Shown: piece by piece, positions 2,844 through 36,951 of the stretch
Numbering within the stretch: position 1 is the stretch's first letter
How the letters are laid out: the number at the start of each line of letters is the position of its first letter
Virus record (IMG/VR): IMGVR_UViG_3300042398_000195
Coordinates: 1 to 37,568 of that record
Strand: one strand, 5' to 3'
Source of the DNA: a virus
Length of the DNA: 37,568 nt
The notes under the pieces: model-generated
Told to the model about the DNA's origin: nothing
The model's database searches: none
The model's input: the letters and a program-made list of their open reading frames with translations, nothing else
Program-made: the position numbers and the translations under genes

Positions 2844-3301
2844 CAAAGAACTCAGACTGGGATATCCCAGCAAGCAAATTTAACTTTCAAAAGGATTTAG
2901 CATATGGCCAACAAGGAGAAAAACTCGTACAATCGTTTCTTGACTCGCTCAGCGACGGAGCGTTTGAAGTCAAAACAGACCGCTACAGGAATGGCAGGAT
3001 GGCAGTCGAGGTTGAACAAAACCCTTTCCGCAAAACAGACGAAGAAGGAAACCAAGTTTGGAACCCCTCCGGAATAAATGTAACTAAAGCAAAATGGTGG
3101 GTATATGTATACACACTAGATGGTACGGGCGGTGCGTTCATTGTCGTATCAGTGAAGCGACTCAAGAAGTACATCCGCAAAAACAAAAAGAATCTGAAGA
3201 TGATGGACTTTGCACGACGCTCAAGCAACCCAGCACGAGGATGGATTATAGAACCCGACCAAGTGATGAGCATGATGTACAGCGAACTATATGATGAATG
3301 A
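2840..3301 (+). CDS. PD-(D/E)XK-like phage nuclease (putative)
   Basis: A 153-residue protein with the layout of small phage PD-(D/E)XK proteins: helix with E27 (GQQGEKLV, 23-30), strand FEVKTDR (42-48), strand MAVEVEQ (54-60), then SGINVTKAKWWVYVY (77-91). The last stretch matches the SGI..T.A..W pattern seen in that group. A basic patch RLKKYIRKNKKN (107-118) could bind DNA. A nuclease role in recombination or host DNA breakdown follows from the fold assignment, but the exact catalytic triad cannot be fixed by eye. ATG 2840 overlaps the RusA stop (ATGA). The stop overlaps the next gene's start (ATGATGAATGA at 3291-3301). Confidence 0.65.
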   Translation: MTKNSDWDIPASKFNFQKDLAYGQQGEKLVQSFLDSLSDGAFEVKTDRYRNGRMAVEVEQNPFRKTDEEGNQVWNPSGINVTKAKWWVYVYTLDGTGGAFIVVSVKRLKKYIRKNKKNLKMMDFARRSSNPARGWIIEPDQVMSMMYSELYDE

Positions 3302-4115
3302 GTTCAGACCCGCAAGAACAACAGCCGACCGCAGTCCCGATACGGACATGGAAGCCCTGATGCAAACCAAACCATTTGAAGAACCACCAACCTCCAACGA
3401 GGAACTACTGGTGCTACGGGAAGCCGTAGCATCAATAGTAGACGACCTAGAACCACGAGACCTGTGGATAATCAACGCATGTATAAGCGAAGGCAAATCT
3501 TTACAGAAGATTGCCGACGAACTAAGCATGACCAAAACACACGTATGGCGCCTGCGTAATCAGGCGTTCGAAAAATTAAAGGTAGCAATGTCAACAGACA
3601 CAACAATCCGTAAAGCAATCCGACTAGCAGACACATGGGAACAATCAGCCATGCAATGGGTGATGTACATGGCAGGTGTAGACAACACAGAACGCATCGA
3701 CATTGAACGCATGCGCTCCTACATCACAGCCCTAGAGGCAGTGTATAGGACCGAGCGTGAGATAATGGTAAAGCAAGAAACCTTCACCGACATCGCCATC
3801 GCAGCAATCAACGAGATGCGCATGATGGAGATTTGGGACACAGGAGAAATGGTTGCCACCTTGTGCCGTAAGCAACACGACTATGGTCATGGCAATATTA
3901 ACCGCTTCGGAATGTATGGGGTAATCGTTCGCCTCAGCGACAAGATTGAACGTTTAGAAAACTTAAAAAATAAAAACACAAAAGCATTCCACGAGTCAAC
4001 CAATGATACACTTATGGATATCGTTGGATACTGCGTGATTGCTCTAATGATACTGGACGATACTTTCAATCTTGAATTAGGAGACTACGATGGAAACACC
4101 GGAACCCACGAATAA
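3291..4115 (+). CDS. HTH (sigma region 4-like) fused to Nmad1/DUF1599-type domain
   Basis: A 274-residue two-part protein. Residues 41-98 look like sigma-70 region 4 or a LuxR-like helix-turn-helix (GKSLQKIADELSMTKTHVWR at 68-87, then AFEKLK). No region 2 is present, so it is not a full sigma factor. Residues about 185-260 carry QHDYGHGNINRFGMYGVIVR with LSDKIERLENL and DTLMDIVGYCVIALMIL, the pattern of DUF1599, also called nucleotide modification associated domain 1. Domains of this type are found in phage loci with modified DNA bases or nucleotide metabolism. The fusion could be a regulator that senses or handles nucleotides. The start is ATG 3291 or the adjacent ATG 3294. The gene overlaps its upstream neighbour by 11 bases and its downstream neighbour by 26 bases. 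Confidence 0.72.
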   Translation: MMNEFRPARTTADRSPDTDMEALMQTKPFEEPPTSNEELLVLREAVASIVDDLEPRDLWIINACISEGKSLQKIADELSMTKTHVWRLRNQAFEKLKVAMSTDTTIRKAIRLADTWEQSAMQWVMYMAGVDNTERIDIERMRSYITALEAVYRTEREIMVKQETFTDIAIAAINEMRMMEIWDTGEMVATLCRKQHDYGHGNINRFGMYGVIVRLSDKIERLENLKNKNTKAFHESTNDTLMDIVGYCVIALMILDDTFNLELGDYDGNTGTHE

Positions 4116-30602: not shown

Positions 30603-30885
30603 AATAAACCCTTCGTCTAGAGGGTATCCAAAACTAAACGCTCTCGCCCTGCGTCGGAAGAGTCCCTTTGAAGTGACGGGGCATGGGTGGCCGTACTCCC
30701 AGGGGGGCCTGTGTCTGCTAGAAACCCCAACAAGCACAAGGCTCACGAATGCATGTAAAGCACACAGAACAATAGATGAGGGGCGCATCCGCTGGCTGGT
30801 ATCCGATACTGGCTGGTTGGTGGGCTATCTCAATCAAGCAAACAAACTCCCCACGCTTGGGGAGTTCCTAACAAAAGGAAATACA
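30603..30885 (+). ncRNA. structured non-coding stretch (candidate leader RNA)
   Basis: No convincing gene fills these 283 bases. Visible structure: hairpin ACCCT (30608-30612) with AGGGT (30621-30625); a longer hairpin GCCC..CGTC (30646-30655) with GACGGGGC (30675-30682) carrying a two-base bulge; a GGCC/GGCC pair around 30689-30710; and the 22-nt palindrome at 30845. An in-frame extension of the next gene to GTG 30673 is possible, but its composition is poor and it lacks a ribosome site. I checked for a tRNA and hammerhead and found neither complete. A leader or small RNA is plausible. Confidence 0.4.
30845..30866 (+). repeat. 22-nt palindrome repeat, copy 1
   Basis: A nine-base-pair perfect stem AACTCCCCA / TGGGGAGTT with a four-base CGCT loop. 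It lies 19 bases before the TTG start of the 158-residue gene, upstream of its AAAAGGA ribosome site. It belongs to a five-copy family (30845, 31362, 32138, 33191, 36466). No U-run follows, so it is either a U-less terminator, a processing or stability hairpin, or a dyad operator. Confidence 0.85.
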
Positions 30886-31362: not shown

Positions 31363-31383
31363 TCTCCCCACGCTTGGGGAGTT
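31362..31383 (+). repeat. 22-nt palindrome repeat, copy 2
   Basis: ATCTCCCCA with CGCT loop and TGGGGAGTT: the second base deviates from the consensus (AT instead of AA) and so weakens the foot of the stem. It begins on the last base of the 158-residue gene's stop codon and ends nine bases before hammerhead ribozyme 1, so hairpin and ribozyme are adjacent in the same transcript. Confidence 0.85.
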
Positions 31384-31391
31384 GTCCTGAC

Positions 31392-31444
31392 ATGACGAAA
31401 CGCCGTGAGGCGTCCACGAGTGAGTGCTCGTGCTGATGAGTCAT
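31392..31444 (+). ncRNA. type II hammerhead ribozyme 1
   Basis: All parts of the catalytic fold are present in type II (stem II open) order. Stem II strand ATGAC (31392-31396), core GAAA (31397-31400), stem III CGCC-GTGA-GGCG (31401-31412), cleavage triplet GTC with C at 31414, stem I CACGAG-TGAGTG-CTCGTG (31415-31432), core CTGATGA (31433-31439), stem II partner GTCAT (31440-31444). Every core base matches the hammerhead consensus CUGANGA/GAAA and A15.1-U16.1 pairs. CTG (31387-31389) and CAG (31445-31447) can extend stem II. Predicted self-cleavage is after C31414, leaving a stem I hairpin at the 5' end of the downstream mRNA, 50 bases before ATG 31465. Confidence 0.93.
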
Positions 31445-31464
31445 CAGTAAACAAAGGAGTGGCT

Positions 31465-31641
31465 ATGGCTACTGAAATACATAAGACATGGGATGAAGTT
31501 GTACTTCAACTCAACGACATCATTGACGAGTTGCAAACTTGGCGTGAATATGAGGAGGAAGTTGGTTACGACCTTGCTCATGCTGACAATTTGACTGGCG
31601 CTATTGAGGCGTTGATTGTTGTTATCGCAGGGAGTAAGTAA
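31465..31641 (+). CDS. small acidic protein between the two ribozymes (58 aa)
   Basis: ATG 31465 is chosen over an in-frame upstream start at 31405, which would run through ribozyme 1, because AAAGGAG lies five bases before it. The protein is acidic and helical (EVVLQLNDIIDELQTWREYE, then EEVGYDLAHADNLTGAIEAL and a hydrophobic IVVIAG end). I do not recognise it. Its transcript would start with the ribozyme stem I hairpin after cleavage. The next gene starts after a two-base gap, so the two are a bicistronic unit bracketed by ribozymes. Confidence 0.68.
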   Translation: MATEIHKTWDEVVLQLNDIIDELQTWREYEEEVGYDLAHADNLTGAIEALIVVIAGSK

Positions 31642-31643
31642 TC

Positions 31644-31865
31644 ATGGAAATCAACGGCGAGAAAGTTATCGGTTACGACCGCATTGCTGACCGAGGTCTA
31701 ATCATCTACACGCAGTCTGTCAATCATGCAATGGGTGATTGCACTCATGTTCGTATGGCGTTTGCTACCAAGCAGGAATGCGATGAGATGGTGTGGATTG
31801 CACGCAGAGAGTGGAAGAAGCACATTGCAGGATTGCGTGAGGGTTACCGAACCATTGTCAAATGA
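31644..31865 (+). CDS. small protein whose stop codon lies in ribozyme 2 (73 aa)
   Basis: A small alpha/beta protein (MEINGEKVIGYDRIADRGLI, MAFATKQECDEMVWIARREW, then a basic end) that I do not recognise. A GGGAG ribosome site stands about ten bases before ATG 31644. Its stop codon TGA (31863-31865) is part of the first stem II strand (TGAC) of hammerhead ribozyme 2. Ribosomes finishing this gene would therefore unfold the ribozyme, so translation and self-cleavage may compete. Confidence 0.7.
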   Translation: MEINGEKVIGYDRIADRGLIIYTQSVNHAMGDCTHVRMAFATKQECDEMVWIARREWKKHIAGLREGYRTIVK

Positions 31866-31913
31866 CGAAACGCCTTCGGGCGTCTACGGATAAATGTCCG
31901 TACTGACGAGTCA
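31863..31913 (+). ncRNA. type II hammerhead ribozyme 2
   Basis: A complete second copy with different stems. Stem II strand TGAC (31863-31866), core GAAA (31867-31870), stem III CGCC-TTCG-GGCG (31871-31882) with an ultrastable TTCG loop, cleavage triplet GTC with C at 31884, stem I TACGGA-TAAATG-TCCGTA (31885-31902), core CTGACGA (31903-31909), stem II partner GTCA (31910-31913). Stem sequences differ from ribozyme 1 while pairing is kept (compensatory change), strong evidence of function. Predicted cleavage after C31884 is 49 bases before ATG 31934, the same geometry as ribozyme 1. Confidence 0.93.
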
Positions 31914-31933
31914 GAAAACAAAAGGAAATAACA

Positions 31934-32107
31934 ATGACTACATCTGAAATGCTTGAGCAACTTGAAATCGAAATGTTTGGTTTCGCTAGTGCAGGCAAGT
32001 GGGCAGACAACCTTGCTGATGAGCAGGAGTTTCTTGCTGAACTTGCTGAGTACGAGTTCGCTCGTGCATCATCACGCACCGGAATCAAGGCTGACCGTAT
32101 CGCCTAG
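31934..32107 (+). CDS. small acidic protein after ribozyme 2 (57 aa)
   Basis: ATG 31934 to TAG 32105-32107 gives 57 residues, mostly Glu/Ala/Leu helix (SEMLEQLEIEMFGFASAGKW, DEQEFLAELAEYEFARASSR) with a basic tail. I do not recognise it. AAAAGGA stands about eight bases before the ATG, in the leader that follows ribozyme 2. That leader resembles the one after ribozyme 1 (an AAACAAAGGA-type stretch), so ribozyme plus leader may have been duplicated as a unit. Confidence 0.65.
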   Translation: MTTSEMLEQLEIEMFGFASAGKWADNLADEQEFLAELAEYEFARASSRTGIKADRIA

Positions 32108-32137: not shown

Positions 32138-32159
32138 ATCTCCCCATGCTTGGGGAGTT
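32138..32159 (+). repeat. 22-nt palindrome repeat, copy 3
   Basis: ATCTCCCCA with TGCT loop and TGGGGAGTT, an eight- to nine-base-pair stem in the 105-base gap between the 57-residue gene and the next gene. It is followed directly by a second hairpin that covers the next ribosome site. Confidence 0.85.
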
Positions 32160-32969: not shown

Positions 32970-33191
32970 ATGAAGCCTGACAACAACATCGACCGTGTAG
33001 CAACCAAAGCACGCAACGCTGGTGCGTTGCTGTATTGGCAAGCAATCAACACGAACACCAATCACCGCACATTCGTAGACGAGGTAGACTTGCCTATGTT
33101 TGAGCGTGAGAACAATGTCGGCATGACATGGTTATTGACACCCGTCCTTGACCTGTCTCTCGTAGATGTGAACGGCAATCACCGTTCATAA
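32970..33191 (+). CDS. small hypothetical protein (73 aa)
   Basis: A neutral alpha/beta protein (IDRVATKARNAGALLYWQAI; FVDEVDLPMFERENNVGMTW) that I do not recognise. It starts directly after the previous stop with GAGGAG before it and ends one base inside palindrome copy 4, so the hairpin begins exactly at its 3' end. This closes the run of small genes before the amidoligase. Confidence 0.66.
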   Translation: MKPDNNIDRVATKARNAGALLYWQAINTNTNHRTFVDEVDLPMFERENNVGMTWLLTPVLDLSLVDVNGNHRS

Positions 33192-33212
33192 ACTCCCCAT
33201 GCTTGGGGAGTT
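33191..33212 (+). repeat. 22-nt palindrome repeat, copy 4
   Basis: A perfect nine-base-pair stem AACTCCCCA / TGGGGAGTT with a TGCT loop begins at the stop codon of the 73-residue gene and lies 36 bases before ATG 33248 of the amidoligase. It separates the small-gene run from the amidoligase/amidotransferase pair, as a boundary hairpin would. Confidence 0.85.
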
Positions 33213-36407: not shown

Positions 36408-36951
36408 AATACTTCTGTCATCTCTCGCTGTAATCAGTGTACACCTAAACCAAACCAGTCAACCAAACTCCCCAAGCGTGGGGAGTTCCACAACAACACA
36501 GGAACCAAATGCCGAAACATCTACTGACATACTTACCATTGCAACAACGACAAGCACTACCAGTACCACAGTACGACCGCAGACCGAGCCAAATGCGTGG
36601 CCGATGGAATGGCTCGCTACGCTACGGACTCCAAAGGATTCATATTGGGATTCTGTTGCTCAGTGTGAGACTGGAAGCAATTGGCAAGACCTTGGCATGT
36701 GGGGTGGCGGACTTGGTATCTACGTACCCACTTGGAGGGCGTTCGGTGGCAGACAGTTCGCAGGACGGGCTCAAGGCGCTACACGAGAAGAGCAAATTCT
36801 TGTAGCCAACCGCATCGCCTTGCATGGCTACCTACGGCAGGACGGGGTATTCCAACAGCCAGTTGGATTCCTCGGCTGGGGCTGTATCAGAAACAACAAA
36901 CATCTAAAACCTACGGTGCCGACACCTTGGTCGGCTTGGAGAAACAAATGA
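36400..36951 (+). CDS. secreted Rpf-like (transglycosylase-fold) muralytic protein (183 aa)
   Basis: Residues 1-16 (MLRILLSSLAVISVHL) form a signal-peptide-like or anchor segment. A Thr/Ser/Pro linker (about 20-65) follows, then an Rpf-type lysozyme-fold domain (about 83-138): YWDSVAQCETGSNWQ with E90 at the catalytic Glu position, MWGGGLGIYVPTWRAFGG, and ATREEQILVANRIA. Rpf domains cleave peptidoglycan glycan strands and are characteristic of actinobacteria and their phages. The start may be ATG 36400 or the upstream GTG 36388. Palindrome copy 5 is inside the coding region (residues 23-30). Exported wall cutting might help host-wall remodelling, lysis or superinfection control. Confidence 0.78.
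   Translation: MLRILLSSLAVISVHLNQTSQPNSPSVGSSTTTQEPNAETSTDILTIATTTSTTSTTVRPQTEPNAWPMEWLATLRTPKDSYWDSVAQCETGSNWQDLGMWGGGLGIYVPTWRAFGGRQFAGRAQGATREEQILVANRIALHGYLRQDGVFQQPVGFLGWGCIRNNKHLKPTVPTPWSAWRNK
36466..36487 (+). repeat. 22-nt palindrome repeat, copy 5 (inside coding sequence)
   Basis: AACTCCCCA / TGGGGAGTT with an AGCG loop, the same nine-base stem as copies 1 and 4. Unlike the others it lies inside a gene, encoding residues 23-30 (NSPSVGSS) in the linker of the Rpf-like protein. Read as RNA it would fold within the message, so it may act at the RNA level there. Confidence 0.85.

Follow-up and report, generated by a model that had tools for sequence, protein, structure and literature searches.

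Two elements in a virus record of IMG/VR (IMGVR_UViG_3300042398_000195; the whole stretch analysed, 37,568 bases, is referred to as the window) are best explained as active hammerhead ribozymes that separate cistrons, cutting the nascent RNA between genes and, in a subset of elements to which both belong, then being locked by their own tail. The fold, the placement between cistrons and the covariation are observed; that cleavage occurs, when it occurs and what the phage gains from it are inferred, and the explanation as a whole is given a probability of about 0.72. The two elements, HHR1 and HHR2 (Table 1), lie within a + strand run of small genes oriented away from the structural genes, and helicase and primase genes are found on the same strand. 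The preliminary description of this DNA had spoken of an early operon, a label that is plausible on the basis of these helicase and primase genes and is not demonstrated. Sigma-70 promoters were sought between the genes of the window and none was found, which would be compatible with one long transcript; this is weak evidence because the host is unknown. Elsewhere in the window, the predicted protein encoded at 3291-4115 shows a weak match to sigma-70 region 4, followed by a nucleotide-modification-associated domain (DUF1599).

Table 1. Positions in the window of the two hammerhead elements, their predicted products and the neighbouring features.
Feature	Positions	Strand	Remarks
HHR1, type II hammerhead	31392..31444	+	descriptor, RF02276, independent covariance model
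HHR1 stem II	31392-31396/31440-31444	+	5 pairs
HHR1 GAAA	31397-31400	+	
HHR1 stem III	31400-31404/31409-31413	+	5 pairs, GTGA loop
HHR1 predicted cut	after C31414	+	
HHR1 stem I	31415-31420/31427-31432 plus U31421-G31426	+	6+1 pairs
HHR1 core CUGAUGA	31433-31439	+	
HHR1 anti-core hairpin	31433..31447	+	six pairs, CUGAUG 31433-31438 with CAUCAG 31442-31447; sequence, covariation in relatives, precursor minimum-energy fold
Predicted 50-nt 5' leader of processed mRNA after HHR1	31415..31464	+	before ATG 31465; stem I hairpin at extreme 5' end; ribosome-binding site AGGAG 31455-31459
58-aa ORF 3' of HHR1	31465..31641	+	function unknown
73-aa ORF	31644..31865	+	function unknown; stop codon within HHR2 stem II
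HHR2, type II hammerhead	31863..31913	+	descriptor, RF02276, independent covariance model
HHR2 stem II	31863-31866/31910-31913	+	4 pairs
HHR2 stem III	31870-31874/31879-31883	+	5 pairs, TTCG loop
HHR2 predicted cut	after C31884	+	
HHR2 stem I	31885-31890/31897-31902 plus U31891-G31896	+	6+1 pairs
HHR2 core CUGACGA	31903-31909	+	
HHR2 anti-core hairpin, 4-bp form	31903..31914	+	CUGA 31903-31906 with UCAG 31911-31914; minimum-energy fold
Predicted 49-nt 5' leader of second processed mRNA (HHR2)	31885..31933	+	before ATG 31934; ribosome-binding site AAGGA 31922-31926
57-aa ORF 3' of HHR2	31934..32107	+	function unknown
Palindrome copies	30845-30866, 31364-31383, 32140-32159, 33191-33212; 36466-36487		last copy in other orientation

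A structural descriptor applied to both strands of the window returned exactly these two elements; shuffled windows, used as a control, gave 0.03 loose and 0 strong matches per window. Both copies retain an intact core (CUGAUGA or CUGACGA), GAAA and GUC, an NUH triplet whose predicted cut follows H17, with stems I and III closed by loops and stem II open, which is the type II order. The coordinates, core bases, three stems, cleavage triplets and leader lengths of the preliminary description were all verified in the sequence, and its statement that the stem sequences differ between the copies while pairing is kept applies to stem I (CACGAG/CTCGTG in one, TACGGA/TCCGTA in the other) but not to stem III, where the pairs are identical and only the loop differs. 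A covariance model built from 38 short-loop elements of other phages recovered the two copies with 65.4 bits (E 1e-15) and 62.3 bits (E 8e-15) and found no third match in the window. In the alignment of those 38 elements, 99.8% of the cells are paired and 137 cells carry changes on both sides, against at most 44% paired in slid controls. The descriptor, the independent model and the hundreds of relatives described below support the identification of HHR1 and HHR2 as real type II hammerheads by fold, their cleavage being inferred.

The Rfam type II model RF02276 gave a less direct answer. Searched against a 621-nt stretch, it aligned over its full length with scores of 30.7 bits (E 3e-4) and 25.2 bits (E 9e-3); both copies fall under its gathering score of 37, so that no match is returned at that score, and none emerged either when the record of the window was itself searched with RF02276. 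Scores below threshold for both elements had been named beforehand as a refutation, and formally that outcome was obtained. However, the cut-off, a threshold set for curation, is the wrong yardstick for short-loop elements, because all elements in eight other short-loop loci tested are missed as well (0 of 43 found), whereas the long-loop elements in locus L092 and in phages Hank144 and R4 are detected. In the RF02276 consensus, loop I is long and forms a pseudoknot with the 3' tail, a feature described for the majority of elements and not for all; no four-pair match between loop I and the 3' tail was seen in the window copies.

Pattern scans of IMG/VR followed by a structural filter yielded at least 716 elements, of which at least 639 are unique, in at least 345 loci. 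The scan patterns fixed in advance the C-G pair beside the core, GUC and CTGANGAG, and for that reason these three features cannot be used as evidence. The surveyed contigs are partly related to each other, and their genes were called with a simple home-made caller. One restrictive pattern run over 84,980 bacterial and archaeal species, with one genome each, matched 26 stretches. Type II hammerheads also occur in named phages, among them Streptomyces phages Hank144 and R4 and Xanthomonas phage Xp15. When the window terminase was compared with annotated phage records, MW202803 came out best, at 53% identity, and it likewise has one hammerhead at a similar position in its + strand operon; the RNA ligase gene annotated in the same record (L435, 20387-21487) is of interest for what becomes of the cut ends. 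Identical hammerhead sequences were observed in three contigs catalogued as Phycicoccus, Streptomyces iakyrus and an Eggerthellaceae MAG (L441, L442 and L460), which could reflect either a shared phage or contamination.

Most of these relatives have a short loop I, and the window elements are, as judged from their sequence, members of this subclass. Among the matches listed, loop I is shorter than 7 nt in 508 of 639 unique elements, U stands at position 7 in 437 of the 461 elements with a stem I of 16-19 nt, and in 82% of all elements the fifth base 5' of GAAA, beside a stem II of four pairs, is A; the typical short-loop stem I is a hairpin of 17-18 nt. The pseudoknot between loop I and the tail was found in 98 of 109 long-loop elements without UCAG, again among the matches listed, and in 54 of 385 short-loop elements without UCAG, a modest excess over the chance mean of 34 that does not support it as a feature of the short-loop class. 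A large short-loop subclass escapes the Rfam cut-off.

The position of the elements relative to genes was consistent across the survey. Over at least 716 elements, and with the simple caller, the predicted cut lies a median of 55 nt before the next same-strand start codon (IQR 49-61) and 28 nt after the previous stop codon (IQR 25-40). Among the matches listed, 9 of 716 elements fall within a same-strand gene, in DNA that is about 80% coding, and 88 further elements lie under an opposite-strand gene call, many of these calls being probably false. For the intergenic elements with two neighbours, both neighbours are on the ribozyme strand in 497 of 574 cases, all elements share one strand in 145 of the 146 loci with two or more, and 161 of 334 neighbouring element pairs flank exactly one gene (all among the matches listed). 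Among the matches listed, arrays of up to 12 elements per locus occur, and near-perfect alternation of genes and ribozymes is seen in L092 (12 elements), L291 and L088. In the window, the TGA stop codon of the upstream 73-aa gene (31863-31865) sits within stem II of HHR2; together with the order of stop codon, cut and start codon, this indicates that the ribozyme occupies the intercistronic gap and that neither cistron is broken. Cistron separation is the best-supported reading of the surveyed elements, the cutting of mRNA itself being inferred. The mRNA processing that had been suggested from the geometry of two copies remains the best-supported role, and that geometry now extends to the whole survey. 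In two annotated phages, hammerheads overlap annotated CDS starts, namely that of an OCR-like antirestriction gene of phage R4 (L433, 5240-5325) and that of UOF82150 in MW202803 (L436, 1948-2008), and both start codons are therefore probably misannotated.

A second feature, absent from the preliminary description, is a tail complementary to the core. UCAG, the complement of the invariant core CUGA, occurs within the first 16 nt 3' of the core in 155 of 639 elements, compared with 12 and 14 in the following two 16-nt stretches (among the matches listed). The base preceding it, N', can be complementary to N7, the free base of CUGANGA. In 88 of 639 listed matches, about one in seven, N'UCAG is present with N' located 3-7 nt 3' of the core, in the stem II strand or the tail; the N7-N' combinations in those 88 are T7-A in 45, C7-G in 34, T7-G in 3 and others in 6, so that 79 are Watson-Crick. 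The covariation of N7 and N' is strong among the matches listed (Fisher p 1e-18; p 2e-13 with one element per contig). It was first seen in the loci of the initial scans (p 8e-7) and was replicated in held-out loci (p 2e-8). Placed at offset 4, N' is no longer part of a four-pair stem II, and there the two bases match in 26 of 29 and in 19 of 19 listed cases. That the tail base depends on N7 in general was excluded, since C7 elements without UCAG have G at that position in 6 of 67 listed matches. Both N7-N' versions co-occur within five loci, and pair counting over the anti-core hairpin gave 98.9% of cells paired and 18 cells changed on both sides, a result that none of 500 shuffles reached. 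UCAG is also enriched at offsets 0-1, the first bases of stem II; these offsets were left out of the covariation test because UCAG there is partly produced by the stem II sequence. A mirror trap for the GAAA half was sought on the 5' side, and TTTC-type words were not enriched there.

Both window copies and their close relatives retain UCAG at stem II, even where stem II has changed (L116). In HHR1, A31443 has two alternative partners, U31393 in stem II or U31437 (N7). The 4-bp form present in HHR2 rests on enrichment and not on covariation. The hairpin takes up the core from C3 to G8 and therefore excludes the active fold. In predictions that consider secondary structure only and ignore hammerhead tertiary contacts, 89 of 93 3' products adopt it as their minimum-energy fold, and the energies of the precursor lean towards it by a median of 1.8 kcal/mol (5-95%, 0.6 to 4.0). 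The anti-core forms of HHR1 and HHR2 are both present in the precursor minimum-energy folds; once a few coding bases are included, the minimum-energy folds of the two 3' products differ.

Hammerhead-type cleavage leaves a 5'-OH and a 2',3'-cyclic phosphate, an established chemistry. In the proposed mechanism, each ribozyme would fold in the nascent polycistronic RNA behind the polymerase and cut between genes. The upstream product would consist of a whole gene with its stop codon and end in the stem III hairpin with the cyclic phosphate, and the downstream product would begin with its 5'-OH right at the stem I hairpin, with a ribosome-binding site of its own further on; to our knowledge, no permutation other than type II gives both new ends a hairpin. 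Each mRNA unit would probably gain a separate stability and translation rate, with no need for host RNase III or additional promoters, much as T7 early mRNA does through RNase III processing. In the subset that includes both window copies, the UCAG tail beside stem II would then capture CUGAN of the core, giving a hairpin adjacent to stem I. Since the anti-core fold is incompatible with the active fold, the cut could become irreversible, the upstream product be freed and a second 5' hairpin gained, or cutting be restricted to a short window. The ribozyme is complete before the tail is synthesised, and the simplest order is therefore to fold, cut and refold. The anti-core hairpin could switch the ribozyme off, probably after cutting. 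The stronger proposition, that this covarying competitor captures its own catalytic core so that each hammerhead acts once, briefly, and is then locked as a self-terminating cistron separator of phage operons, is regarded as evenly poised. Several points weigh against the proposed mechanism: the covarying form is limited to the 88 of the matches listed and HHR2 has the 4-bp form alone, the anti-core fold is slightly favoured before the cut, the entire right-arm operon of the window phage contains just two ribozymes, and the survey gene calls come from a simple caller.

The slight preference of the precursor for the anti-core fold also means that the hairpin might keep the ribozyme inactive from the start rather than act once the cut is made. 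It might then serve as a conditional switch, in which a ligand, protein, salt, temperature or transcription speed sets the fraction that is cut. The near-equal energies of the two folds would suit such a switch, as would the two alternative partners of N' in elements of the HHR1 kind, both of which the covariation keeps. However, 5' to 3' synthesis completes the ribozyme ahead of its tail, which allows cutting to precede the hairpin; no ligand-binding domain is seen in the tails, which are short; and most relatives lack the hairpin and yet lie in the same position. A switch is therefore considered unlikely, and a limitation of cutting beforehand is not excluded. Far less probable is that a pair of ribozymes excises the intervening RNA, which a ribozyme or an RtcB-type ligase would close into a stable circular mRNA. 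The excised piece would carry the required ends, and the stem II halves of the two window copies are mutually compatible, but halves with three or more pairs are nearly as frequent among same-array non-neighbours (54%) as among neighbours (57%), so that no selection for neighbour-compatible halves was found; pairing is retained within each copy, and the anti-core hairpin would block re-ligation. Spliced or circular products were sought by Perreault et al. (PMC3088659) and none was found, and circular RNA products are considered unlikely. Selection of the DNA inverted repeats themselves, as operators, terminators or recombination sites between exchangeable cassettes, is scarcely credible, as the varying gene content between ribozymes and the further palindromes in the same gaps would fit it but it would not explain why the hammerhead core is invariant, why the strand relative to the genes is constant or why three stems compensate.

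A near-perfect palindrome, AACTCCCCA(C/T)GCTTGGGGAGTT, with variable outer bases, is repeated in the intergenic gaps of the right arm, one copy standing directly before HHR1, and is also present in relatives L001-L005 and L007; whether it is a terminator, an RNA hairpin or an operator is open. The genes between two hammerheads have been swapped while the ribozymes were retained, as in L007 (2680-3023), L002 (2684-2972) and L116 compared with the window (31392-31913). The window has two genes in this interval and L007 a single unrelated gene of 72 aa, a pattern of ribozyme-bounded gene cassettes. Small ORFs resembling the 57-aa ORF also follow a hammerhead in L001, L003, L004, L007 and L116.

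Two established systems offer partial parallels. The glmS ribozyme is self-cleaving and lies in the 5' leader of a bacterial mRNA, where it requires glucosamine-6-phosphate and lowers the expression of its own gene; the elements described here are likewise ribozymes of a self-cleaving type in mRNA 5' leaders, with no ligand domain seen. In the early mRNA of phage T7, RNase III cuts the polycistronic transcript at intercistronic hairpins into separate mRNAs. The agent there is a host protein enzyme, whereas here it would be RNA alone, with other end groups.

The closest precedent is the 2011 report by Perreault et al. (PMC3088659), which described type II hammerheads clustered around prophage genes and proposed a role in mRNA processing, so that these two points were already published; three of its arrays cleave in vitro and one also in E. 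coli. The role of bacterial and phage hammerheads has been an open question since then, and the strict order of stop codon, ribozyme, ribosome-binding site and start codon argues for mRNA separation. As far as the searchable literature shows, what is new is the scale and strictness of this arrangement, the short-loop subclass under the Rfam cut-off and the covarying anti-core hairpin. In the openly searchable part of the phage hammerhead literature after 2011, nothing closer to that hairpin was found; priority is not proven, as only this part was accessible. The core-capturing hairpin gives a testable prediction on how the reaction ends or is limited, and mRNA processing is accessible to laboratory tests in two cultured Streptomyces phages, R4 and Hank144, whose long-loop type II hammerheads lie between cistrons. 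With the RF02276 type II elements (PMC3088659), those of this study share the permutation, core, GUC triplet, phage or prophage setting and clustering around single genes, and they differ in the short loop I, the lack of a loop I–tail pseudoknot, the scores below the cut-off and, in a subset, the core-complementary tail. In the Agrobacterium, Azorhizobium and Clostridium prophage clusters (PMC3088659), several ribozymes flank one or a few genes, processing of a long transcript into gene-length mRNAs was proposed, and cleavage was demonstrated in vitro, whereas here up to 12 per locus alternate with genes and the stop-cut-start order has been measured over at least 639 unique elements.
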